This document shows, in pieces, positions 12,774 to 27,208 of a stretch of DNA of 43,449 bases (position 1 is the stretch's first letter; each line of letters opens with the position of its first letter). Source of the DNA: a virus; IMG/VR virus record IMGVR_UViG_3300005753_000035, positions 1-43,449 of that record, one strand, 5' to 3'. The notes under the pieces were generated by a model, which had not been told where the DNA came from, did no database searches, and saw nothing but the letters and a program-made list of their open reading frames with translations. Position numbers and translations under genes: made by a program.

Positions 12774-12969
12774 ATCTTAAACTTCTCTCTATTAAATCAT
12801 AATAATTTTGTAAGCCTACATCAGTAGTGTTCATACCTAATGAACATATGCTATCTAGGTGTGCTCTATCCTCTTGAGACAGCTGGTATCTAAGTAGTAC
12901 TATCTCGTCCTTAAATATACTAAGAGCTATTTTATATGCATCATTCTTTAAATCAAGTAGATTTACCAT
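12766..12969 (-). CDS. Unknown 67-aa helical protein
   Basis: The ATG at 12969 gives MVNLLDLKNDAYKIALSIFKDEIVLLRYQLSQEDRAH..., an acidic, mostly helical product. Upstream in-frame ATGs exist, but their codons overlap the RNA ligase and encode a histidine/methionine-rich stretch unlike protein, so the shorter start is preferred. It overlaps both neighbours by a few codons. No family was recognised. Confidence 0.55.
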   Translation of the reverse strand: MVNLLDLKNDAYKIALSIFKDEIVLLRYQLSQEDRAHLDSICSLGMNTTDVGLQNYYDLIERSLRYE

Positions 12970-13489
12970 AATCATCATTCTCATATGTAACCTTAAACAT
13001 CTGTGCAAGCTGTGTATGATATACAACTACACCCTCTGGATTTTTAAAACCATATGATGCATGACTAGAGTTCTGTAACTCTTTCATTGCATCATCTACA
13101 GCATCAGTAGAGAATATACCTTCATACAGAACTGGCACTACTGCTAACTGCTCTACATTTTCAGTGTGTATGTTGTTCCATCGACCAGTATTAAAGAGAC
13201 TAAACATTTTAATTGGCATGTTATATGCTCTCTGTATACCTAGTCCCCACCACTCTCCATAGTGCCTACCCTCTCCTAGAATATTAAACAAGTCACTCTG
13301 GTTTCTATACGCCCAGTTTGCAAATCCATAGTTGTCATCACTTGGAGTTATAATTCTATTCCTAGACCCACATAGTATTTCTCCAGTGTCACTAAAGTTT
13401 ATCTGAGAATTAGTACCATCTAACTTCTCGGTGATGACACACTCACGCTTCATACGTTTAATGCTTGGAAACTTCATAAAGCTTGACAT
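12953..13489 (-). CDS. RNA ligase, single nucleotidyltransferase domain
   Basis: 178 aa with the covalent nucleotidyltransferase motifs in order: motif I TEKLDGTN (nucleophile K22), an R-containing strand CGSRNR (41-45), motif III-like RHYGEWWG (75-82), motif IV PEGVVVY (151-157, E152) and motif V MFKVTYE (K166). This is the RNA_ligase (Rnl2/DRB0094-like) superfamily; the enzyme would adenylylate itself and seal RNA 3'-OH/5'-phosphate ends. It is about half the length of T4 Rnl2 and has no C-terminal specificity domain. It starts one base after the phosphoesterase stop (SD GAGG), so the two are one unit. Confidence 0.8.
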   Translation of the reverse strand: MSSFMKFPSIKRMKRECVITEKLDGTNSQINFSDTGEILCGSRNRIITPSDDNYGFANWAYRNQSDLFNILGEGRHYGEWWGLGIQRAYNMPIKMFSLFNTGRWNNIHTENVEQLAVVPVLYEGIFSTDAVDDAMKELQNSSHASYGFKNPEGVVVYHTQLAQMFKVTYENDDYGKST

Positions 13490-13490
13490 A

Positions 13491-14258
13491 TTATTTACCT
13501 CTCTTTAAAAGATAATCTAAAGATAACTCCATAAGATTATAGTTACCATCAGCTACCTCATGTAGCATTAGGCATCCTCTGAAGTGCCCATTAGCTTGTG
13601 GCCCTTTATAGTCCTCATCATGCTGATAGAATGAACCAGCAACTAGAGCACGTATAGTCTGACCATTGGCTAGGGATTTAATAGCTGTATCTAGTCCTTG
13701 AACATGTCCTTGAACAAAACTAAAACCAACTTTATTTAGCTTAGTATGTGCTGTACCACCGTAAGGTCTTCCTGTTAGAGGCGCATAGAAGTAATGTGAG
13801 TATGCTATACCATCTATATTCACTATCTCTTTGAAGTCAAACACTTCCCATCCAAACTTCTTTAAGTCAAAGTCATCATATGATATAGTACCAGATAGTA
13901 ATGGATTAGCATTAATATGACGCATAATACGTTCTTCATGGTTACCTATTAAGAAGACCATACGAGGCTTGTACTGCCTTAGCTTAGTCTTTCTAAGTGC
14001 AACATTAAGTGCCTGTATAGGCTCCATAAACAACTCCATAGCGCTCTTACCTACCTTTATATCATTGTTATAACGTGCCCCTTCTGCTTTCTTTGTTGAC
14101 CTATCATAACTGCTTAAACTGTGCATGTCAAAGAAGTCACCTAGACATATGATAACATCTGGTCTCTTATCTACCACGTAATTACCTGCTGCAGTTAGAT
14201 GGTCTGTATCCACATCAGGTCTAACCTGACAATCCGGCATTACAAAATGTTTAGTCAT
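13491..14258 (-). CDS. Calcineurin-like metallophosphoesterase
   Basis: 255 aa with the metallophosphoesterase motifs: first ligands in MPDCQVRPD (D9), GDFFD (40-44), GNHEER (105-110), SHYF and GHVQG in the C-terminal half. The first motif is DxQ rather than DxH, as in many phage members. It would hydrolyse phospho-mono- or diesters with Mn2+/Ni2+. It lies immediately upstream of the RNA ligase. In bacterial Pnkp a metallophosphoesterase 2',3'-phosphatase domain is followed by a ligase domain, so end healing is a reasonable hypothesis, not shown. Good SD (GAGAAGAGG). Confidence 0.85.
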   Translation of the reverse strand: MTKHFVMPDCQVRPDVDTDHLTAAGNYVVDKRPDVIICLGDFFDMHSLSSYDRSTKKAEGARYNNDIKVGKSAMELFMEPIQALNVALRKTKLRQYKPRMVFLIGNHEERIMRHINANPLLSGTISYDDFDLKKFGWEVFDFKEIVNIDGIAYSHYFYAPLTGRPYGGTAHTKLNKVGFSFVQGHVQGLDTAIKSLANGQTIRALVAGSFYQHDEDYKGPQANGHFRGCLMLHEVADGNYNLMELSLDYLLKRGK

Positions 14259-14987: not shown

Positions 14988-15352
14988 TTTAAATCCTCCA
15001 ATATTTTATGGCATGTGTCCTCAGTAAACCAACGGAATCCTTCCTTCTCTGCCCACTGCGCCATGCTTAGTTTAGCACCCTTGCGTACCTTAGTGTTAGG
15101 GTTGGCAAATATAAACATCAACTCTTTATCTGGATTACTATCTCTAATTGCTTTATACTTTGCTTGGTCTCCAACACGAAAGTATCCTTTAGCTTCTATT
15201 AATATGTTAGTACCTTTAGGAACAAAGTCTACTTTATAGTTCCTATGTGTTATATAAGGAACATTGAATGGTTCATACAATGTACCCTTGAGTCCATTGG
15301 TGTGTAGTCTGTATTCCAATCCAGAGCGGTATGGTTTAGGTACTGTCTTCAA
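14984..15352 (-). CDS. Endonuclease I / Holliday junction resolvase (T7 gp3-like)
   Basis: 122 aa. The endonuclease I active site is complete: YRSGLEYR (E13), YKVDFVP (D42) and LIEAKGYF (E53, K55), the PD-(D/E)xK layout of T7 gp3. It cleaves branched DNA and, in T7, degrades host DNA and resolves replication intermediates before packaging. The start is TTG at 15352, overlapping the exonuclease stop (TTGA); no ATG occurs before the catalytic region, so TTG is needed. Confidence 0.88.
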   Translation of the reverse strand: MKTVPKPYRSGLEYRLHTNGLKGTLYEPFNVPYITHRNYKVDFVPKGTNILIEAKGYFRVGDQAKYKAIRDSNPDKELMFIFANPNTKVRKGAKLSMAQWAEKEGFRWFTEDTCHKILEDLK

Positions 15353-16224
15353 AATGGTATACCATCATCCATAGATATTTCTGTAGCAGTAGGGTTATGT
15401 GCATCCCACAAGTCTTCATCATTATTAAGAATCCAAAGTAACTTAGCATTCATATCACGCATAGCTATACCTTTGTTATGGTCATTATTATAGCACTTTA
15501 TGTACTCTTCAGTAATAGCACCAAACATATCAGTATTACTATCCTGTATATCCTCCAACAGTTTATAAGCAGCCATCTTACCCTTCTTGGGTATTCCCTT
15601 GATGTTATCAGTAGGGTCTCCCATAATCATCTGACACCAGAACCACAACTTAGCATCCGCTGCTGACACATTATACAAGCAATCCTTCTGCCAGTTATAA
15701 TGCTCACCTCTAATGGTATTTAAATCCTTATCAATAGACGCTATACAGCAGTCATGTGGGCACATAGTAGCTGCCAATCCTATAGCATCATCGGCCTCAC
15801 AACCATCTATTACAATGGCATTGTGATTATTTATTAGATATTTTCGTAATTCTTCATAGTGAATAGGTCTAGTGCTTGGTGAGCGAGTTGCTTTATAGTC
15901 ATCAGTCACGAGGTCTCTAAAGTTACCTTCACCTGTTAAGTACACTACATAATCTGTAGCTTTGGTAGCTTTAACTACATTCTCTATTTGTAATTTCATA
16001 GAATGTAGAACGTTCTCTACTGCACAAGCTGTTACACTAATAGTTACATTATCAACTTGGTATGCAGGACTAGCCTTAGCAGATTTCATAGTACTGTAAG
16101 TCAAAGGTACATATAAAGAATGACCAACAGCCTCCTCTATAACATAAGCTATTTCTTGTCCTGCAAAACCTACACTATATACAAATATATCTGCATCTAT
16201 ATAAACAGTTTTTTCTTTACTCAT
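15349..16224 (-). CDS. 5'-3' exonuclease, FEN/PIN family (T7 gp6-like)
   Basis: 291 aa. Metal-binding motifs of the FEN family appear in order: VYIDADIF (D10, D12), GEGNFRDLVTDDYKATR (arch), EADDAIG, SIDKDLNTIRG and GDPTDNIKGIPKKGKMAAYKLL (helix-hairpin-helix-like 3' DNA contact). It digests 5' ends and flaps during replication and recombination. It lies next to endonuclease I and near the polymerase and ssDNA-binding protein, as in T7-like genomes. SD AAAGG; the ATG overlaps the preceding small gene's stop region. Confidence 0.88.
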   Translation of the reverse strand: MSKEKTVYIDADIFVYSVGFAGQEIAYVIEEAVGHSLYVPLTYSTMKSAKASPAYQVDNVTISVTACAVENVLHSMKLQIENVVKATKATDYVVYLTGEGNFRDLVTDDYKATRSPSTRPIHYEELRKYLINNHNAIVIDGCEADDAIGLAATMCPHDCCIASIDKDLNTIRGEHYNWQKDCLYNVSAADAKLWFWCQMIMGDPTDNIKGIPKKGKMAAYKLLEDIQDSNTDMFGAITEEYIKCYNNDHNKGIAMRDMNAKLLWILNNDEDLWDAHNPTATEISMDDGIPF

Positions 16225-16896: not shown

Positions 16897-17129
16897 TATA
16901 CTTCACCTCTGTTCTGTATTTTCTTCTCTAGTTTATGTGAGTGCAGGTGACCTTTGGATTCCATATCTATCCAGCCTTCATTAAGGAACATGGCGCGTTG
17001 ACTTTGTAGAACTTTCTTAAGTGAGTTGTTACCACACTCAGGACAAGTAGTAAGTGCATCATCCGTGATGCGTTGTTTCTCCTCAAATAACCACCTGCAG
17101 TCTACGCATTGATAGACATATGTTATCAT
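16896..17129 (-). CDS. FmdB-like zinc-ribbon protein
   Basis: 77 aa. The N-terminal half has the FmdB/regulatory zinc-ribbon pattern: YVYQCVDCRWLFEEKQRITDDALTTCPECGNNSLKKVL, with cysteines at 8, 11, 29 and 32. A basic C-terminal tail follows. Such proteins are common in phages and may bind nucleic acid or protein; the function is unknown. Translation is coupled to the ssDNA-binding protein (overlap of 4 nt, SD GGAG inside that gene). Confidence 0.72.
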   Translation of the reverse strand: MITYVYQCVDCRWLFEEKQRITDDALTTCPECGNNSLKKVLQSQRAMFLNEGWIDMESKGHLHSHKLEKKIQNRGEV

Positions 17130-17605
17130 GCTCCTGCTGCTTCTGCCGCAGCTACTTTTTCCTCCGCTATTTCTACTTCTTCGTCTGCTGCTGAAGCTGC
17201 GAAACCTTCATGAGTTTCAAAGTTATTCTCAGGTGTACCATATGGAATTAGATCAATAACTTGTACACCACCTAGTAGAGCCTTAGTACCTGTCTTACCA
17301 GCATACGTCCATACCTTTGCTTCAAAGTCTACAATAACTTCACTACCATTACCAATCATTCCAGTGAAAGGTATGTTACTAGCATCAACACAGTTTGGTT
17401 TAGCTGCAGAACTACCATCCTTATACACTGCAGTACGTTTAAATCTAAACTCATTAGTCTCACCTTTTATTGGTGTTAGGTTTAGACCAATAAGTAAATC
17501 TCTAGTTGAATCATCAACTATTAAGTTTACTGTATACACAGGCTCGAACTTTGTGTTCGGAGTTATTACTGATGCCCATTTTGCTTTTCCTACTACTAAT
17601 GTCAT
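17126..17605 (-). CDS. Single-stranded DNA-binding protein (gp2.5-like)
   Basis: 159 aa. An OB-fold-like beta core begins GKAKWASVITPNTKFEPVYTVNLIVDD, with aromatic and basic residues, and includes VIVDFEAKVWTYAGKTGTKALLGGVQVIDLIPYG, the usual end of the phage SSB core. The tail after it is acidic (DEEVEIAEEKVAAAEAAGA). T7 gp2.5 ends in an acidic tail with a terminal Phe; here the final aromatic is missing. It coats ssDNA and recruits polymerase and helicase. Good SD (TTAGGAG). Its leader (17606-17708) contains three hairpins. Confidence 0.78.
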   Translation of the reverse strand: MTLVVGKAKWASVITPNTKFEPVYTVNLIVDDSTRDLLIGLNLTPIKGETNEFRFKRTAVYKDGSSAAKPNCVDASNIPFTGMIGNGSEVIVDFEAKVWTYAGKTGTKALLGGVQVIDLIPYGTPENNFETHEGFAASAADEEVEIAEEKVAAAEAAGA

Positions 17606-17708: not shown

Positions 17709-18581
17709 TTATACTTCAAACACTTTCATGTTCGCCCAGGTTTTACCTACCTTGATTTCTACATTTAAGGGCAGATTAAAATCTATATCAAAAACTCTCT
17801 TCAACATATCTGGTGCATCCTCCATCACCTGTTTAACTAAACTTCCTATACTATAGACCATAGTATCTTGCATGTCAAGTAATATTGAATCATGAACTGT
17901 ATTAATTAATTTTACAGTATCATGATAAGGAACTACTGCATGGTATACCTCACCCAATACCATTGGGACTATATCCCCTGTTGCAAATCCCTGCACTGGG
18001 TAGTTCTTTATTTGTGTTGGACTAAAGTTAACTGGCTCACCCCAGCCATTAGTTACTTTATAGAACGGGTTATCATATTCATTGAACACATAGCGTCTAC
18101 CTGTTTTTGTACACAAGGTGGACTTTCCTACAGGAAATCCTGTAGGACTACTATTTCCTGTAGGCTTACGAAGACCTGCTATTGCTCTTATATGATAATC
18201 CTGGTACACCTTAACTTTAGGGTATCTTGCATAATATAAATCAATAAACTCTTGACATATACTCTGTAGTATGTCTAATGCTACAGACATGCTCTTAGCG
18301 CCTGCACCATATTGTAATTGAAAAGACAGAGTCTTTGCTATTCTTCTTTGACTCTTAGTTACATCGCACTCAGGTACTCTAAATAACTGTGCTGCTCTCA
18401 TAATGTGTAGGTCTTTACCACTTAATAAATCTGATATTAGAATTTCATCAGCAGTTAAATGAGCAAGTACAAATATTTCTAGTTGCGAGTAATCAACCTC
18501 CATTAAAATACCACTGGAACCAAACCTAGAGCCAAAGCATTCTCTAATATCATATGTCATTAGGATTAAAAACTTCGTCAT
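17709..18581 (-). CDS. Family A DNA polymerase, C-terminal (palm/fingers) part of a split gene
   Basis: 290 aa from ATG 18581, or 283 aa from ATG 18560 which overlaps the preceding stop more closely. Polymerase motif A DYSQLE (from D30), motif B RRIAKTLSFQLQYG (R79/R80, K83, Y91) and motif C VHDS (H230, D231) are all intact, so the catalytic palm and fingers are complete. The N-terminal exonuclease and thumb lie in 18765-19994. The sequence begins where the other piece stops: YDIRECFGSRFG corresponds to the residues that normally follow NLQNxxxKGxx. The two products presumably assemble into one replicase. Confidence 0.9.
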   Translation of the reverse strand: MTKFLILMTYDIRECFGSRFGSSGILMEVDYSQLEIFVLAHLTADEILISDLLSGKDLHIMRAAQLFRVPECDVTKSQRRIAKTLSFQLQYGAGAKSMSVALDILQSICQEFIDLYYARYPKVKVYQDYHIRAIAGLRKPTGNSSPTGFPVGKSTLCTKTGRRYVFNEYDNPFYKVTNGWGEPVNFSPTQIKNYPVQGFATGDIVPMVLGEVYHAVVPYHDTVKLINTVHDSILLDMQDTMVYSIGSLVKQVMEDAPDMLKRVFDIDFNLPLNVEIKVGKTWANMKVFEV

Positions 18582-18762
18582 CTTGTGGTATATCTATACA
18601 GACCCTTATAACTTTGTTATTAACTGCTGACTGTATTATAACTTCATTAAACTTATTGTACTCTATCATTGAGTATGCTACAAGAAATAAATTTGCTATA
18701 GCCTGTTGTGATTCATTATCTTTGTCAGACAACTCTATCTTCTGTACTCTGTTATCTTCCAT
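18550..18762 (-). CDS. Unknown 70-aa ORF inserted between the two polymerase halves
   Basis: ATG 18762 follows AAGGGAG (the last codons of the polymerase N-part) and lies just past its TGA; an in-frame TTG at 18768 is less likely. The 70-aa product MEDNRVQKIELSDKDNESQQ... has a central helix (AIANLFLVAYSMIEYNKF), a beta segment (VIIQSAVNNKVIRVCIDIPQ) and an acidic end. No nuclease motif (HNH, GIY-YIG, LAGLIDADG) is visible, so it is not an evident homing endonuclease. Its stop overlaps the polymerase C-part start region, so all three are one coupled unit. Confidence 0.62.
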   Translation of the reverse strand: MEDNRVQKIELSDKDNESQQAIANLFLVAYSMIEYNKFNEVIIQSAVNNKVIRVCIDIPQDDEVFNPNDI

Positions 18763-18764
18763 TA

Positions 18765-19994
18765 TCAATCTCCCTTGTTAGTTACGTTCTGTAAGTTTGG
18801 TTTACTACTGCTTAATCTTCCTGTAGCAGTGGCTGTATGGTTTAATCCTTGGTGTATACAGGAATCAGTAGGCCATGTTAGATTGCTATAACCTACAAAA
18901 TAAGTGTTTCGTTGTTTACTTAGCTTTCGATATTCTAATATAGCAGAAATAAAAGTTTCTGCATCTTTACCTGGTGTATCTGAAAGGATATCATTAAGTA
19001 CATTATCAGATACTGAAACATTTCCCTTGTCAGACTTCCACTTCTCTAAAATAGGAATTTCAAAACCTTTAATATTTATTGTTTTAAGTATCATTCTAGT
19101 TTTAATTTCTCCTTTTCTTTTACCTGTCTTGTATCTAACAACTGCCCCTAATTTATCAAGAACATCCTCCTTACTAGGTACCTTTATATCTCCACCAAAC
19201 AACACAAGACTAACTTGTTTTACACTATTAGGATTAAAGTCAAAGGAGATAGGCAGACCTAAAAACTTGATTGATTTTTCTAGAACAGTCTGTAATACAG
19301 TTAAATCCGTATCTATCTCATCTGCTATATTTATAGCCATATTTCTATTGAAGTGCATACCATTATATTCCATTTCAATAGTACATTTTAATGCATCCAT
19401 CTGTGTTAGAATTAGTGGTAGCATACCAATCCTGTCAGCTTCTTGAAGTTGCTTATTAAATACTAGATGTGTATTCATTACATCATCTTGAAGATATGGT
19501 AGTAGTAATTCTGAATCTATATCTTCCGTCTGCATACCTGCATCCCACATATCTTTTATAACATCATTCTTTTGTGTACCTCCATACTTTTTAGATAACG
19601 CATTAAGGCTTGCATACTGGTGCTCTTGACCTGTTAATAAGTACTCAGCTAATTGTGTGTCCCATATCTGGATTCTTGGAAATACTTCATACTGAAAGTC
19701 CACAACAGACTTAAAAATGTGGTGCATATCAAACTTAATATTCTGTCCTACCCACAGCTTAGGTATTTCATTATCTGTATTTTCTAAAATTATATGGCTA
19801 AGTTCATCATACACATAGGAATGATGATAATTAAGACGTTTGTTTAACGCTCCAGTAACTACTATTCTGTTTTCTGGATGAAATGCTGATGCTTTGTTCT
19901 TACCAATAGCATCATTACCAACATTTCTTATGGTAGTCTCAATATCAATTACTAGGTAGTCATCTGTGAATTTAAACTTACTAGCGCTCATCAT
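18765..19994 (-). CDS. Family A DNA polymerase, N-terminal part (3'-5' exonuclease and thumb)
   Basis: 409 aa. DEDDy exonuclease motifs are present: DYLVIDIETT (D17, E19), GQNIKFDMHH and LLPYLQDDVMNT (YxxxD). The thumb region follows and the protein ends with TATGRLSSSKPNLQNVTNKGD and a TGA stop, exactly before motif A of a Pol I-type enzyme. The rest is encoded at 17709-18581. The split falls in a loop and almost no polymerase residue seems lost. SD GGAGG precedes ATG 19994 (or 19991), and the start overlaps the previous gene. Confidence 0.9.
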   Translation of the reverse strand: MMSASKFKFTDDYLVIDIETTIRNVGNDAIGKNKASAFHPENRIVVTGALNKRLNYHHSYVYDELSHIILENTDNEIPKLWVGQNIKFDMHHIFKSVVDFQYEVFPRIQIWDTQLAEYLLTGQEHQYASLNALSKKYGGTQKNDVIKDMWDAGMQTEDIDSELLLPYLQDDVMNTHLVFNKQLQEADRIGMLPLILTQMDALKCTIEMEYNGMHFNRNMAINIADEIDTDLTVLQTVLEKSIKFLGLPISFDFNPNSVKQVSLVLFGGDIKVPSKEDVLDKLGAVVRYKTGKRKGEIKTRMILKTINIKGFEIPILEKWKSDKGNVSVSDNVLNDILSDTPGKDAETFISAILEYRKLSKQRNTYFVGYSNLTWPTDSCIHQGLNHTATATGRLSSSKPNLQNVTNKGD

Positions 19995-20357: not shown

Positions 20358-21593
20358 TTAAAAGTCTTCATATCTTCCTATCTCCGGTCTGAACTTAACC
20401 TCTGACTTCAAGTTACGTATGACAGTATCACCACTAGCTTTATTCTTTGGCGTGTGTATGAACCTAGTGTTAGTAAAAGCAGGGTCATGTGATTGCCCTA
20501 TCGCTATGATATAGTCCGCCTCCCCCTGTATCCCTGTCTTACTTCCATATATCTGTGACATTTCTATCCACATCTGTCCCTCTGCACTAGCATCAGCCTG
20601 TATAGTACCTATCACTGGTGCGTATTCCTTACACCATTCTCTCGCACTGTTGAATATCTTTGTCTGTCTGTATACTTCACCTAACTCCTCGAATCCTTTA
20701 AGCTTCCACAGTTGGTCAATGATTATTAATCCGGGATTATATTTCTTGATGGCTTCATGTACTTCATGCACAGTTATGATTGCTTTGTCTACCATCACAA
20801 TCTTGTTGATGTCACCAAGTACTTTAACGTACTCATCGATAGCCTTCTGCTTGTCTTTGTCTATTGCAGTAACAGTTAACCCTAGTGTTGATTGCAGCAC
20901 CTTAGACTGTACCTTGGAGCCTTTCTCTTCATTGTTAATCCAGAGTACTACCTTGTCTTTGTCTAGCTGAGAAGCCATGTGCGTAGCTTCAGAAGATAAG
21001 AATGTAGTCTTGCCGGCATTGGGTCTTGCTGTTAAGACTATTAAGTCCCCCTTACCTATGTTACCTATAGTCTTGTTGAGTGAATTTAGCCTCCAGCTAA
21101 GACCCCCAGTACCCGTAACACTGGACATTATATCCTCAACATTCCATATCAATACATGACTCTCTAACGCTGTTGTCTTACCTATATCATTGTTATAAGA
21201 ATCAAGTAAACCTTCAATAGCATCTAAGTCTGGAGTAATACCTTCTGCTACTTCTCCAGACTCTAAGTAAATTCTTGTAGCATAATCTCTAGTGATAAAC
21301 ATATTAACTAGAGCATCAGTGTCTTCATCATTAGTTACTAAACCAACAGTCAACTTACTAAACAACTGTTCAAATAGCTCATGCTTCTCAGACTTAAACA
21401 TTGGATGGTACACCTTAAACCAAGTGCTAAAGGTACTCCAAGTAATATCTGTTGTTGTTTTATGGGAATTATAGTATTCTTCTAAGTCTTTAAATATAAC
21501 TTTAGTTTCATTAGTTAATATATTATCTTTAATATAATCTTTATACTTAAAGAACTTGTCTTTATTACCAAGAAGTTGAATAACTTCTAACAT
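20358..21593 (-). CDS. Replicative DNA helicase, DnaB/gp4 C-terminal type
   Basis: 411 aa. RecA-like core: Walker A TARPNAGKTTF (about 188-198), an NNEEKGSKVQ segment, Walker B GLIIIDQLWKL, and a C-terminal region with VIGTIQADA and YIIAIGQSHD. It is a hexameric 5'-3' helicase for the replication fork. Unlike T7 gp4 it has no fused primase; a separate primase is encoded 0.5 kb upstream. The first 140 residues are helical and may contact primase or a loader. SD TTAGGAGG lies before ATG 21593 and can pair with an upstream complement (see 21599-21664). Confidence 0.88.
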   Translation of the reverse strand: MLEVIQLLGNKDKFFKYKDYIKDNILTNETKVIFKDLEEYYNSHKTTTDITWSTFSTWFKVYHPMFKSEKHELFEQLFSKLTVGLVTNDEDTDALVNMFITRDYATRIYLESGEVAEGITPDLDAIEGLLDSYNNDIGKTTALESHVLIWNVEDIMSSVTGTGGLSWRLNSLNKTIGNIGKGDLIVLTARPNAGKTTFLSSEATHMASQLDKDKVVLWINNEEKGSKVQSKVLQSTLGLTVTAIDKDKQKAIDEYVKVLGDINKIVMVDKAIITVHEVHEAIKKYNPGLIIIDQLWKLKGFEELGEVYRQTKIFNSAREWCKEYAPVIGTIQADASAEGQMWIEMSQIYGSKTGIQGEADYIIAIGQSHDPAFTNTRFIHTPKNKASGDTVIRNLKSEVKFRPEIGRYEDF

Positions 21594-21943: not shown

Positions 21944-22138
21944 CTACATACTCCTAAAATTCTTAATTGTAAGCTCTATGACTTGCTGTTCAACTGCGAT
22001 AGTTAATGCTCTTAGCTTCTCTAATCGTGCATTAACTTTTCTAGTAGCCCTCTCAGCATCACGCATTCTAATCTCAAGTACCTGTATAGCAGCTATCATA
22101 TCTTCTTCAAGGGTACTTGTATCACTTAGTCTCTTCAT
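21944..22138 (-). CDS. Small coiled-coil protein, 64 aa
   Basis: MKRLSDTSTLEEDMIAAIQVLEIRMRDAERATRKVNARLEKLRALTIAVEQQVIELTIKNFRSM. Heptad-like spacing of I/L/V over nearly the whole length predicts a coiled coil. ATG 22138 overlaps the primase 3' end and has SD AGGAG. It could be a helicase/primase accessory; no family was recognised. Confidence 0.6.
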   Translation of the reverse strand: MKRLSDTSTLEEDMIAAIQVLEIRMRDAERATRKVNARLEKLRALTIAVEQQVIELTIKNFRSM

Positions 22139-22988
22139 ATCCTAGTATCTCCTTAAGTTTTTTGTCACTCATTTCTTTAGGGTCAATGCCACCACTGTGT
22201 ATTATAGTGCTACTATCTACGAAAGGTTCCAACCTATTCTTAATCCTCAGTTGACTATTACGAACCTGTTGGTTATCATCATCCATAAATATTATAACAT
22301 TGTTATACCTACTAACATACTCCAAGGTTCTTTCATTTATAGAGGTACCAAGAAGAGCAATACTTGGTACGTACCGCGCTACTTTTATCGCAGATAGTAT
22401 ATCTTCTGTAAGTACCACAGTGTCAGTCAATGCACCGAGTGCAGTGGCTGACTGTGTAATATACAGTGGATGCTCTACGTTTGAGAATGTAAGGTACTTA
22501 GGACTGTCATTATCCATTGAGTTAACTCTACGCATAACTACGAAGTCAATACCTTTCTTACCAAACATAGGTAGTATTACTCTTCCGTATAGTTCTGAGT
22601 ATCCAATGTTGTTTGATTTAATTTCTTCATCAGTGATTCCATATCTTCGGAGCCATACATATGCACCTGAACCCCATTTTTTATAATCTCGTTCATAGTC
22701 TTTTGGAAGTTTGTATTTAATGCGCGGTCTGCCTGTTGCGCTGATTTTGCTACATGATTTACCATATATAGCAATTGATTTGATCTGTTGTATAGTACTA
22801 TGTTTAAGTGAATCAAACCTACCACGTTTACCACAGTGATGGCAGTAAGCCAATATAGTGTATCCATCTTCGCACCTCGTTATGAATAGTTTGTCGTTGT
22901 CTTTACCATCTTTACAATGGTGTTTGTGTACAGTTCCTACCTCTTCTGGAGCATAAGGAACATATTCTTTATGCTGTAGCCAGGTCAT
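22122..22988 (-). CDS. DNA primase with zinc-binding and TOPRIM domains
   Basis: 288 aa. N-terminal zinc-binding region with His/Cys ligands (HKHHC near 21-25, C39, CHHCGKRG at 49-56), then a linker and a TOPRIM domain: VVLTEDILSAIKVARY (acidic residues of motif I) and NVIIFMDDDNQ (DxD of motif II). This is the primase half of T7 gp4, here encoded apart from the helicase. It makes RNA primers for lagging-strand synthesis. SD AGGA; overlaps the preceding gene by 4 nt. A perfect copy of the 15-bp palindrome lies inside it (22293). Confidence 0.85.
   Translation of the reverse strand: MTWLQHKEYVPYAPEEVGTVHKHHCKDGKDNDKLFITRCEDGYTILAYCHHCGKRGRFDSLKHSTIQQIKSIAIYGKSCSKISATGRPRIKYKLPKDYERDYKKWGSGAYVWLRRYGITDEEIKSNNIGYSELYGRVILPMFGKKGIDFVVMRRVNSMDNDSPKYLTFSNVEHPLYITQSATALGALTDTVVLTEDILSAIKVARYVPSIALLGTSINERTLEYVSRYNNVIIFMDDDNQQVRNSQLRIKNRLEPFVDSSTIIHSGGIDPKEMSDKKLKEILGYEETK
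22293..22307. promoter_or_regulatory. Palindrome TATAACATTGTTATA, perfect copy inside primase gene
   Basis: Perfect copy within the TOPRIM-coding part, where it encodes YNNVI. Part of the match is forced by the protein sequence, so it may be fortuitous; unlike the other perfect copies it is not beside a start codon. Confidence 0.4.
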
Positions 22989-23695: not shown

Positions 23696-23923
23696 TTAAA
23701 AAGGTACATTAGCACTACTAACATCTTTAAGTATATTTATTAAATTACCCACAAGCACATAATCATCTGTTAAAAAACTTCTAGAAAATTTTATTACATT
23801 ACTATTACTAATGTTAACAAAAACCTTTTTGTTTCTTTTATCTAAAGATAAGTATATACAATAGTTATCTATTTTAGCATTATAAAACATATCAAATATT
23901 TTAAAGTTATCACTTGATGACAT
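23696..23923 (-). CDS. Unknown 75-aa protein
   Basis: ATG 23923 overlaps the TAA of the AAA+ ATPase gene (TAATG) with SD AGGAG. Product: MSSSDNFKIFDMFYNAKIDNYCIYLSLDKRNKKVFVNISN..., beta-rich with a helical end. Coupled to the ATPase; role unknown. Confidence 0.58.
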   Translation of the reverse strand: MSSSDNFKIFDMFYNAKIDNYCIYLSLDKRNKKVFVNISNSNVIKFSRSFLTDDYVLVGNLINILKDVSSANVPF

Positions 23924-25020
23924 TATATCAACTCCTCTCCAAACACAGTCTTAAAGAACCCTGATACCATAGTACGTTCTGTTTCATTGGGTAACTTCTC
24001 AAAGAAAGACATCTTTAATGCTAGAGATACAGACTTAAGGTATTGTGCTTTGCTAGACCAATTAATCAAAGTTCTTGGTGAACACGTCATACTTATATCA
24101 TTGGTATCATAAGCACGCCGTACTAGTGCTGCAAACTTAAGCATCTTATTACCTAAGACATCGTTCATCTTGGGGTTACGTGCCTTTAGTATAGATAGTT
24201 CATGACTAGGGGGCAAGTAACCTACATGAATACATGTACCAAATCTATCCAAGGTAGCTGTATTCTGTACATTGGTAGCAGCAAAGCCTCCCTTATCATC
24301 ACCTAACCCTTTAGTATTGTCAGTAAATACAAGATTATATTCTGGGTGTGGCTTTATTAATTTATCAGAACTACTGCCAGGTTTGTCAGATAGATAGAGC
24401 TGTCCGTTCTCTTCCATCAACCATTGTAGAGACATCATAATTTCTGGTGGTATTACTGTCCATTCATCAACACATATAGTTGCACCATTCTTAACACCTT
24501 CAGTTATAGTACCGTCAACCCACTTAGTAGCACCACCTTGTGCTGTTAACATACCTAATAAGCTATCAGATTCTAAATCACCACGACCATTGATGCGTAT
24601 GAAGGGGCGGCAACTAAGAGCACATATGTACTTGACCATAGATGACTTACCACTACCAGTTGGCCCAGTTATATTAATCTTATCTCTCATTTCCATACCT
24701 AATACACACATTTCTAACTCATGTTTCTGCGCTTGATAGTTAGTAAACTCTGACATCTTCGGTATATGTACTGCTATAGTAGGACTCCAGTCTTCAGTAG
24801 CATACTTATGTACCGCATGGTCTATCCCGGACAGTGGTAAGAAACCATAAACATCACTAAACTTATATAATCCTTCAGGGATTGGTAGCGTTGTATCTTC
24901 AACTTCAAAATCTGCTGGTTCAGATTGGTAACCTGGTGCAGACTTCTTAGCATTCAAAACTTTATCAAGCAAAGCTTCTTGTATTTTTTTCTCAAAGGAT
25001 TCTTCTATTGCTGTAGACAT
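23923..25020 (-). CDS. MoxR/CobS-like AAA+ ATPase
   Basis: 365 aa. Walker A GPTGSGKSS (119-127), Walker B TICVDEW (181-187) followed by the MoxR-type insert region PPEIMMSLQWLMEENGQLYL, sensor-like NLVFTDN, and arginine-finger region ATLDRFGTCIHVGYL. These features are those of the CobS/MoxR branch, which works with a VWA partner (CobS-CobT, RavA-ViaA, CbbQ-CbbO) to insert metal or remodel proteins. The VWA partner is 25288-27024, separated by one 75-aa gene. No cobalamin pathway gene is present, so cobalt chelation is not implied. SD AGGAG. Confidence 0.82.
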   Translation of the reverse strand: MSTAIEESFEKKIQEALLDKVLNAKKSAPGYQSEPADFEVEDTTLPIPEGLYKFSDVYGFLPLSGIDHAVHKYATEDWSPTIAVHIPKMSEFTNYQAQKHELEMCVLGMEMRDKINITGPTGSGKSSMVKYICALSCRPFIRINGRGDLESDSLLGMLTAQGGATKWVDGTITEGVKNGATICVDEWTVIPPEIMMSLQWLMEENGQLYLSDKPGSSSDKLIKPHPEYNLVFTDNTKGLGDDKGGFAATNVQNTATLDRFGTCIHVGYLPPSHELSILKARNPKMNDVLGNKMLKFAALVRRAYDTNDISMTCSPRTLINWSSKAQYLKSVSLALKMSFFEKLPNETERTMVSGFFKTVFGEELI

Positions 25021-25277: not shown

Positions 25278-25292
25278 AATAACAATGTTATA
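25278..25292. promoter_or_regulatory. Palindrome, near-perfect copy (AATAACAATGTTATA)
   Basis: One mismatch to TATAACAWTGTTATA. It covers the stop of the VWA gene and precedes the SD of the 75-aa gene on the - strand (...GTTATTAACTAGGAG). Confidence 0.6.
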
Positions 25293-27024
25293 GTCTTATA
25301 ATCTTAGTTTTAATTACATCAAGTAAGGCTTCTTCCAACTCTTCAGGTTTATTTATTACTTGATGGTCTTTGTACAAATCCATTACGGCATCACTTTTTA
25401 TACCTATTCCATATATTTCAATTGAACTTTCATCTTGTATGTATTGAATAACTTGTTTAGTATGACTATAAGCACCACGCCTATCACTATTAGGTTGGCC
25501 ATCACTAAGTACTATTAATATCTTGCGCTTATTCTTTTGTGCTGCCAGCCTATGATATGCAAATTGTATTGCTTCTCCATCAGCATTCTGCCCCATCATA
25601 TCACTACCATTTGAGAAGTCATTAACTAACCACTCAGGTGTAGTTCTGGAGTTAAAAGTTTTATATATACATAACACACTTTTGCCAAGTGCTTCAGTAA
25701 ATCCTAGTATCTCCAAGGGTATCTTAAGTGGTGATATAGCCTCATTTAACATAATACATGAGTGTACCATATATATATATTTTTTACCTCTCATACTGCC
25801 TGACATATCACCCAGTACTGTGACTGCTGTATCAAGCATATCATTTTCAGTACGTTGACTGAATACTTTCTCTCCGTATCTGCCACTATCAGGTATGGAC
25901 ATGCGGTATAAAGCTTTGCCGTTAATCTTACCTTTCTTTTTGCCATGTATACGCTTGGATTTACTACGTATCTGTAGTAGTCTGCGTACAGTAGATGATA
26001 GACCTTTACCTAAGGTCTTGATATTATTAAGATCTTCTCTGTGTTGTCTAGCGTAGTGTCCATATGTATCCTCGTGATTACCACTATAGTATGGTATCTG
26101 CTTAACGTCTTCAGCTCTAAATTGATACTCATCATCAGACACATCATACTCTATCTCTAATCCTGCATAGGTAGCTTGATTTTTATCATCACTAGTGTGC
26201 ATGTGCTTAAGTATATCAGAGTACTTAACCCTTGCATCCTCCTTGCTGTCTACTCTTTTACCTTCACCTTCAACGCTCTTACCCTTACCAGATTCCCCTT
26301 CTTCCTCATCACTATCATCACCAGAATCTTGGGATTTCTTTTCTTCCTCATCTGAATTCATTTCAAAGACTTCATCAAGTGCCAGCTTCCATTTATCATA
26401 TACATCAAATGCTGTGTTAAGCGGTGGTGGTTGTACTTGATATCTGTCTTCATTATTCAGTAGTTTATTAACCCATGTCTGCTGTTCATCATCAAGCATA
26501 TTAAATATTTGTTTGCCTTGTCCTATAAGAGAATGCTGCCAGACCTCTCGACATATTATATCAAAGCACAGCATAGACTCTATGATTCTTCGCTCTTTAT
26601 TCTTAGAAATCCCAAGTTTTTTACTTTTAATTATTGCTTCAATACTATAACAGTTACTAGATTCTAATGCACTGTCTCTACCATAGTACTCACCTTTCTT
26701 AAAGATTTCTATCCTATAGTCCTCAAGTAAATTTATACCGAAGCCAAAAAAACTGTCCATGTTTAATTTCTTGTCTCTTGCCATAACAAAAGCATCACGA
26801 GTCTCTGGATAGTTATGACTTATTTCATGGTACAGTGAACCCCACCATTTTATGAACTGATCTTTACTCCACGATGTGTGAGGATTACCGACAACTATAG
26901 TACTTCCATTAGTATGTGGAACCTTAAGACTGTCACGAAACTCTACATTTAATTTGGTATTAGCTGCGAGTACCCTGACAAACTTCTTTATACCTCCGAT
27001 ATCTACCATTTGTTTGTATAACAT
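25288..27024 (-). CDS. VWA-domain protein with N-terminal HExxH (CobT / DUF2201-like)
   Basis: 578 aa from ATG 27024 (SD TAGGAG ten bases upstream; earlier in-frame codons are hydrophobic and overlap the next gene). N-terminal region: SLYHEISHNYPE, an HExxH motif at 66-70, with LLEDYRIE about 30 residues later as a possible third ligand, as in zincin-like domains that precede VWA domains in DUF2201-type and phage CobT-like proteins. A long acidic linker (about 255-280, rich in D, E, S, G) leads to a VWA domain: VLGDMSGSM (MIDAS DxSxS, about 405-412) and VLSDGQPNSD. It is likely the partner of the CobS-like ATPase. Peptidase activity is possible but unproven. Confidence 0.82.
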   Translation of the reverse strand: MLYKQMVDIGGIKKFVRVLAANTKLNVEFRDSLKVPHTNGSTIVVGNPHTSWSKDQFIKWWGSLYHEISHNYPETRDAFVMARDKKLNMDSFFGFGINLLEDYRIEIFKKGEYYGRDSALESSNCYSIEAIIKSKKLGISKNKERRIIESMLCFDIICREVWQHSLIGQGKQIFNMLDDEQQTWVNKLLNNEDRYQVQPPPLNTAFDVYDKWKLALDEVFEMNSDEEEKKSQDSGDDSDEEEGESGKGKSVEGEGKRVDSKEDARVKYSDILKHMHTSDDKNQATYAGLEIEYDVSDDEYQFRAEDVKQIPYYSGNHEDTYGHYARQHREDLNNIKTLGKGLSSTVRRLLQIRSKSKRIHGKKKGKINGKALYRMSIPDSGRYGEKVFSQRTENDMLDTAVTVLGDMSGSMRGKKYIYMVHSCIMLNEAISPLKIPLEILGFTEALGKSVLCIYKTFNSRTTPEWLVNDFSNGSDMMGQNADGEAIQFAYHRLAAQKNKRKILIVLSDGQPNSDRRGAYSHTKQVIQYIQDESSIEIYGIGIKSDAVMDLYKDHQVINKPEELEEALLDVIKTKIIRL

Positions 27025-27031
27025 TGTTATA
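27017..27031. promoter_or_regulatory. Palindrome TATAACAATGTTATA, perfect copy over a start codon
   Basis: The central ATG of this copy is the start codon of the VWA gene (27024): SD TAGGAG, then CTTATAACAATGTTATAC. A protein bound here, or a hairpin in the mRNA, would block initiation directly. Confidence 0.68.
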
Positions 27032-27037
27032 AGTCTC

Positions 27038-27208
27038 CTAATGTAGTGTGTTATTATATACAAAGAAAACACAGGTATCATCTGCTAGCTCATTTATACG
27101 TTGAACATTCTCATATACTGTGATAACACCAGCTCTTCTACGCTGTTCCTCAAAGAATTTGTTAAGATATTCCATATCATTAATTCTTTGTTGCTCTAAG
27201 AAGTTCAT
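27038..27208 (-). CDS. Small charged protein, 56 aa
   Basis: ATG 27208; product MNFLEQQRINDMEYLNKFFEEQRRRAGV..., a charged helix with a beta end (VFFVYNNTLH). It sits directly upstream of the VWA gene; its ATG overlaps the stop of a possible 21-codon ORF (TAATG). SD is poor. No family was recognised. Confidence 0.5.
   Translation of the reverse strand: MNFLEQQRINDMEYLNKFFEEQRRRAGVITVYENVQRINELADDTCVFFVYNNTLH

Follow-up and report, generated by a model that had tools for sequence, protein, structure and literature searches.

A family A DNA polymerase probably built from two chains in tailed phages, with a gap that collects passing genes

Family A DNA polymerases are textbook single-chain enzymes, and group I introns are known in phage polymerase genes (SPO1, Bastille), where they lie near the active site and often occur with HNH genes. 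Introns of this kind contain a catalytic RNA detectable with Rfam, whereas none was found in the gaps of the split loci searched here. The closest described system is that of the OM43 phages MEP401 and MEP402 (Zobellviridae), in which a family A polymerase is encoded by two ORFs around a small unidentified ORF; its authors found most group I metagenomic relatives to be split as well and left undecided whether it represents an intron or a split gene (PMC10580990). In family B, the split gene 43 of T4-type phages (Aeromonas phages 25 and 44RR) specifies two polymerase chains around an insertion, and the 43A and 43B products of phage 25 co-purify with polymerase activity, according to a review which also suggests that the endonuclease may have invaded a gene 43 that was already split (PMC2988022). 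Further genes in pieces are the split nrdA of phage Aeh1 and topoisomerase gene 60 of T4, essential enzymes divided by the homing endonuclease genes mobE and mobA with function kept (PMC2988022), whilst PolB of Pseudomonas phage MIJ3 contains a split intein and is encoded by two genes around an HNH gene (PMC6892783).

Here, we analysed a polymerase locus in a stretch of viral DNA of 43,449 nt (IMG/VR record IMGVR_UViG_3300005753_000035; hereafter the window). Like MEP401 and MEP402, it contains a two-ORF family A polymerase around a small ORF, and its terminase is 57 % identical to theirs (57–59 % among Zobellviridae phages); unlike in the window, however, the break in MEP401 and MEP402 lies 14–18 residues later, after SRYGE and directly before motif A, and their gap ORFs partly belong to one family. 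Vibrio phage ICP2, annotated as a joined CDS in RefSeq (NC_015158), shares the break of the window exactly, with a C-part beginning MSDIKRC and ∼40 % identity in both parts, but has an HNH gene in place of the small ORF. Split gene 43 is similar in that a replicative polymerase is made as two chains around an insertion; it belongs to family B and is restricted to few phages, whereas the window type belongs to family A, breaks elsewhere, and is found in many lineages with a broad gene cargo. In comparison with Aeh1 nrdA and T4 gene 60, the enzyme is different and the cut outlives or lacks an endonuclease in most lineages. The halves of MIJ3 PolB carry intein sequences, whereas in the window type the conserved motifs lie only a few residues from where the halves stop and start; a split intein was rejected for the window, where the N-part ends six residues after NLQN and the C-part starts four residues before the conserved block. 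The split itself is already published for MEP401 and MEP402, and the two-chain polymerase would be a further case of genes in pieces. In the open-access literature we found no description of the break seen in the window (type I, below), of splits without an insert, or of the gap as a site for cargo genes.

Polymerase genes in the window

Three minus-strand ORFs lie head to tail in the window: a polymerase N-part, a 70-codon ORF and a polymerase C-part (Table 1). The N-part matches the Pfam DNA_pol_A profile at positions 41–133 together with DNA_pol_A_exo1 (3'-5' exonuclease), as well as PHROGs 9556 and 17, and ends with TGRLSSSKPNLQNVTNKGD followed by TGA (18765–18767), six codons past PNLQN. 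The C-part begins ATG ACA TAT GAT ATT AGA GAA TGC (MTYDIREC) and reads MTYDIRECFGSRFGSSGILMEVDYSQLE from ATG 18560, four codons upstream of IRECFGSRF, followed by motifs B and C down to 17709; it matches DNA_pol_A from position 140 onward and PHROG 2573 from position 3. The start proposed by the ORF caller (ATG 18581) adds seven residues absent from relatives, and ATG 18560 was taken instead. A preliminary description of this DNA had proposed a family A polymerase split into two genes with almost nothing missing at the break, and these matches bear it out on both points: only ∼6 DNA_pol_A positions are absent between 133 and 140. The PHROG collection already contains separate families that end and begin at the break (phrog_9556 is matched to its last position and phrog_2573 from position 3). 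The exonuclease motifs and polymerase motifs A, B and C are all intact with their catalytic residues, as is characteristic of family A. The single polypeptide usual for that family is replaced by an N-part with its own stop codon and a separate C-part, an arrangement kept in relatives, and we therefore regard the locus as a variant architecture rather than a different family.

The intervening ORF runs from ATG 18762–18760 to a stop at 18552–18550. It had been described as having its own Shine–Dalgarno (SD) sequence and overlapping ends; the SD (GGGAG) and an 11 nt overlap with the C-part were confirmed, whereas at its 5' end 2 nt separate the N-part stop from the ATG (TGA TA ATG), with no overlap. 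By codon usage the ORF outscores essentially every non-coding frame in the window and ranks at the 32nd percentile among real coding windows, and so it appears to be more than a chance occurrence; an antisense ORF of 75 codons over the same stretch does not have coding-like codon usage. As such, the 70-codon ORF is probably a translated gene. Its product matched nothing in Pfam or PHROG, no relative was found in IMG/VR (pattern scan) or in phages (tblastn), and it showed no similarity to the gap ORFs of other loci. We read it as cargo, the current tenant of the gap, without homologues in these searches. The C-part has no good SD of its own and is therefore probably translationally coupled.

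Genes for a helicase, a primase, a single-stranded DNA-binding protein and a 5' exonuclease surround the polymerase parts, which identifies the locus as a replication module. Adjoining the replication genes are an AAA_5 ATPase gene, CobS-like by position, and a CobT-like gene. Elsewhere on the minus strand, genes for an RNA ligase and a metallophosphoesterase lie end to end and are possibly an RNA repair pair.

Table 1. Features of the polymerase locus and its surroundings, with features of related loci (L numbers)
Feature	Position	Strand	Basis or remark
DNA polymerase N-part: 3'-5' exonuclease, thumb, first palm segment	18765–19994	-	409 aa; C-terminal end SSKPNLQNVTNKGD, then stop
SD (GGGAG) of 70-codon ORF	18770–18774	-	Within the last codons of the N-part
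70-codon gap ORF (MEDNRVQKIEL...FNPNDI)	18550–18762	-	Sequence; coding-like codon usage
DNA polymerase C-part: palm motifs A and C, fingers motif B	17709–18560	-	Pfam, PHROG, alignment; start kept in relatives
Gp2.5-like ssDNA-binding protein, next gene downstream	17126–17605	-	PHROG 112
5'-3' exonuclease, downstream	15349–16224	-	Pfam 5_3_exonuc_N
DnaB-like helicase, upstream	20358–21593	-	Pfam DnaB_C, PHROG 19
DNA primase, upstream	22122–22988	-	PHROG 47
AAA_5 ATPase	23923–25020		CobS-like by position
CobT-like gene	25288–27081
RNA ligase	12953–13489	-
Metallophosphoesterase	13491–14258	-
ICP2 polymerase parts, RefSeq join	L001:3510–4019		Join probably wrong
R67-type dihydrofolate reductase	L014:4142–4348		DHFR_2, E 2.7e-22; phage ctOsX528
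Group I intron in C-part	L061:4256–4517		Rfam, 75.5 bits
Group I intron with HNH ORF	L081:965–1617		Below Rfam gathering score
Group I intron with HNH ORF	L083:3543–3810		Below Rfam gathering score

Conservation of the break and turnover of the gap

In order to find related loci we used profile scans of IMG/VR, followed by a script that located the NLQN end, the next C-part and the start of that C-part. A single-sequence scan with the C-part gave zero matches, relatives surfacing only with profiles, and a scan of genome contigs gave only two relatives, both fused. Removal of near copies left 45 distinct type I and 24 distinct type II loci; as the profiles were built from split sequences, the share of split loci in this set is not a prevalence. 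In type I, which includes the window, NLQN and a few residues are followed by a stop and then by MSxIKxCFxSRF, whilst in type II, the clade of the OM43 phages, the break is 14–18 residues further downstream, directly before motif A. The split is present in isolated phages (the ICP2 group, VP41s3 and MEP401), and in the Vibrio phages ICP2 and VP41s3 it falls at the same residue as in the window. The preliminary description had suggested looking for the same break in related phages and checking for the constant presence of the 70-aa ORF; the break does recur (ICP2, VP41s3 and the 45 type I loci), but the ORF does not accompany it. Although fused relatives exist (L003, L004, L008 and L009), we found no near relative with an intact fused gene, which would have spoken for a recent insertion, and the nearest insert-free relatives are also split.

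Of the 45 type I loci, 11 are split yet insert-free; their gaps measure −4 to 9 nt and cover all three relative frames. Two type II loci are also insertless. Across the split loci the gap ranges from −17 to 1736 nt, again in all three frames, and is mostly packed with tandem same-strand ORFs. Pfam matches among these were to HNH_3, DUF3310, 2OG-Fe oxygenase, DUF551 and R67 dihydrofolate reductase, with a weak match to the poly(A)-polymerase head. HNH genes were found only in the gaps of ICP2, L069 and L162, and none is present in that of the window; the VP41s3 gap holds an 88-codon ORF. The R67-type gene lies in the gap of the split polymerase of phage ctOsX528 (Table 1). Many gap ORFs of the type II clade (L013, L137, L165, L172, L174 and others) belong to one small protein family, whereas type I cargo is mixed. 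Mostly unrelated from lineage to lineage, gap contents change even among relatives whose polymerase parts are 90–99 % identical: 484 nt in ICP2 vs 9 nt in Saratov-12 (99 % protein identity), 1 nt in L167 vs 279 nt in L169 (97 %), and 256 nt in L035 vs −1 nt in L039 (91 %).

Both ICP2_2013_A_Haiti and Saratov-12 are split with a 9 nt gap, whereas ICP2 has an HNH gene at that place. Since Saratov-12 is still split without it, and both polymerase parts are 96–97 % identical to those of ICP2 in DNA sequence, the RefSeq join of the ICP2 parts is probably wrong. Mismatches between the two phages accumulate beside the HNH gene (nine over the final 60 nt of the N-part and 17 over the opening 60 nt of the C-part, vs 0–6 per 60 nt elsewhere), a pattern that would fit co-conversion as the HNH gene entered an already split junction. 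Insertless relatives likewise answer the question of intron or split raised for the MEP401 clade.

Separate translation of the two chains appears well supported across the split loci. In 32 of 45 type I loci the C-part opens exactly 9 nt ahead of the IKxCF block; in type II the corresponding distance, measured to the motif A block, is 15 nt in all 24 loci. Using a wide definition, an SD precedes 78 % of type I and 83 % of type II C-part starts, compared with 25 % of 827 internal in-frame ATGs; with a core definition the values are 67, 79 and 13 %, respectively. The C-part of the window is among those without a clear SD. Taken with the active-site residues described below, the starts and SDs would make this one conserved gene expressed as separately translated ORFs with its function kept.

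To gain insight into the age of the split we used a quick, unrooted maximum-likelihood tree of 113 sequences, on which 3–4 changes between split and fused states are needed. Type II forms a single clade (support 100). Placing type I on one side of a branch was not rejected and gave the better likelihood (p-AU 0.78), which fits one origin of the type I split, whose members differ by branch lengths of 0.5–1. Fused relatives occupy nested positions close to the split groups, and as the position of the root is not fixed, re-fusion is possible in one nested fused clade (L059, L063, L057 and relatives). Collectively, the tree supports a split that would be old, long-lived and inherited. The same precise break, next to the active site, is kept in dozens of distant relatives whilst unrelated small genes turn over within it, and we therefore interpret it as an old, stable feature rather than damage or an intron.

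Three polymerase genes of the set contain group I introns. That of L061 lies in the C-part of an already split gene, which is both split and intron-bearing, whilst those of L081 and L083 lie between SSSDP and NLQN in otherwise fused genes, a few residues away from where type I loci break.

Fit of the two parts to one enzyme

Across representatives of both types (37 of type I, 18 of type II), the exonuclease residues, the TGR arginine, Asp of motif A, Arg, Lys, Phe and Tyr of motif B, and His-Asp of motif C were invariant with two exceptions, one an incomplete (truncated) row and the other a type II row at motif C. On Escherichia coli Pol I/Klenow, using residue numbers (e.g. TGR arginine 668, Asp705) of the established Pol I numbering, the type I break maps to the loop between ∼680 (NLQNIP) and ∼688 (RRIRQAF), before the Asp705 strand, and the type II break maps to just before Asp705. 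The TGR arginine (668; TGRLSS) is thus on the N-chain and both catalytic aspartates are on the C-chain; consequently, neither chain should be a polymerase alone.

The two parts of the window are in the same frame, and for AlphaFold they were supplied as one chain in which the gap stops were read as residues, giving a dummy linker of 70 residues; the alignment comprised the window and IMG/VR split loci only, with zero fused sequences. The model had a pTM of 0.86 and a mean pLDDT of 88; pLDDT exceeded 90 in most blocks of both parts, the read-through insert was disordered (∼40–55), and the break sits in a loop between two short helices. Foldseek ranked Bst DNA polymerase I first among PDB structures (TM by target 0.82), and its best matches, which also include Klenow, span 0.77–0.84. 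Both parts are therefore predicted to be compatible with one Pol I-like fold; as the modelled chain is covalently continuous, the model speaks to the fit of the halves and not to their binding in trans.

Alternative readings and significance

In our view the locus very probably represents an old, obligate two-chain family A replicative polymerase, the gap of which collects passing genes, although assembly in trans and activity are inferred. Each chain would be made from its own start codon within one operon, the C-chain via its own ribosome-binding site or by coupling to the preceding ORF. The exonuclease and thumb would reside on the N-chain together with the palm segment bearing the TGRLSS arginine, motifs A, B and C would reside on the C-chain, and the active site would form on association of the two chains. 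The gap would tolerate insertions, such that small phage genes (homing endonucleases, metabolic genes and others of unknown function) enter and leave; the split itself may have arisen by invasion of a homing endonuclease or a similar element. The two-subunit replicase proposed in the preliminary description accordingly gains weight from a break shared by dozens of divergent phages, its persistence without an insert, the retention of catalytic residues, and a C-part with its own start and, at most loci, its own SD.

A related reading also takes the break as a standing gene-entry site in an ancient, obligate two-chain replicase clade, but holds that at least some of the proteins encoded in the gap (the small-ORF family of type II and possibly the 70-aa ORF) have been recruited as polymerase accessory subunits; we consider this unlikely. 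More specifically, the 70-aa protein might be a genuine third subunit, as had been tentatively suggested, acting for example across the break as a clamp or processivity peptide. Its coding-like sequence, its SD and its position between both parts are in keeping with this, as is the family shared by several type II gap ORFs. Against it, the gap ORF is missing altogether from 11 of 45 type I loci, other gaps hold unrelated HNH, DUF3310, 2OG oxygenase and R67 dihydrofolate reductase genes, contents turn over among relatives with near-identical polymerases, and the searches returned zero homologues of the ORF. A third subunit is thus distinctly improbable, and this part of the earlier proposal is not upheld.

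The two-chain reading was also weighed against readings in which a single polypeptide is made. Were the gap a self-splicing group I intron, the polymerase mRNA would be spliced into one frame, as the joined CDS of ICP2 in RefSeq implies and as the MEP401 authors considered (PMC10580990); HNH genes do occur in some gaps, and true introns exist elsewhere in polymerase genes of the set (L061, L081 and L083). However, the same Rfam search that found these three, which serve as positive controls, gave no intron hit for the gap of the window, even with E values up to 1 allowed, and none for the gaps of ∼34 split loci at the gathering threshold or of 16 at a lax threshold. The window gap has no conserved catalytic RNA core and its RNA is no more folded than shuffled sequences (z 0.69), whilst gaps in general are mostly filled by tandem ORFs and the split persists where there is no insert. 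Splicing is therefore very hard to sustain for this locus. One product might equally result if ribosomes bypassed the gap, shifted frame or read through a stop: in the window, one GAT codon sits ahead of the stop and another, in frame with it, at the downstream junction, a pair resembling take-off and landing codons, and in L005, L011 and L012 the parts are in frame across one stop. In disagreement with this, gaps vary from overlap to well over a kilobase in all three frames and are full of ORFs with their own SDs, the C-part has a dedicated start and SD, and the window gap has no stable RNA structure; a bypass element of the T4 gene 60 type has a fixed, short non-coding gap with matched codons and a hairpin, and of these features the window shows the GAT/GAT pair, whereas the gap varies in length and frame, looks coding and has no extra structure. 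We regard this, too, as highly improbable, and because 11 of 45 type I loci are split without an insert, intron, bypassing and readthrough are all excluded as a common rule. Lastly, a gene broken by a recent inactivating insertion or by a sequencing or assembly error, which a single metagenomic contig and the known fused relatives might suggest, is scarcely credible given the same break in viable isolates and dozens of divergent contigs, the invariant catalytic residues and a split long-lived on the tree, and the preliminary description had rightly discounted a sequencing error.

These findings correct the interpretation of ICP2 and MEP401 as intron-bearing, and serve as a warning that PolA-based surveys and gene callers will register half-genes. 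They also make testable, with simple proteins, whether a palm can be assembled from two polypeptides without loss, and the natural break points could guide the design of split polymerases for laboratory use. More broadly, a large and varied group of tailed phages appears to have long run with a polymerase active site shared by two chains, and a break of this kind can outlive the element that possibly caused it and become a docking site for new genes.
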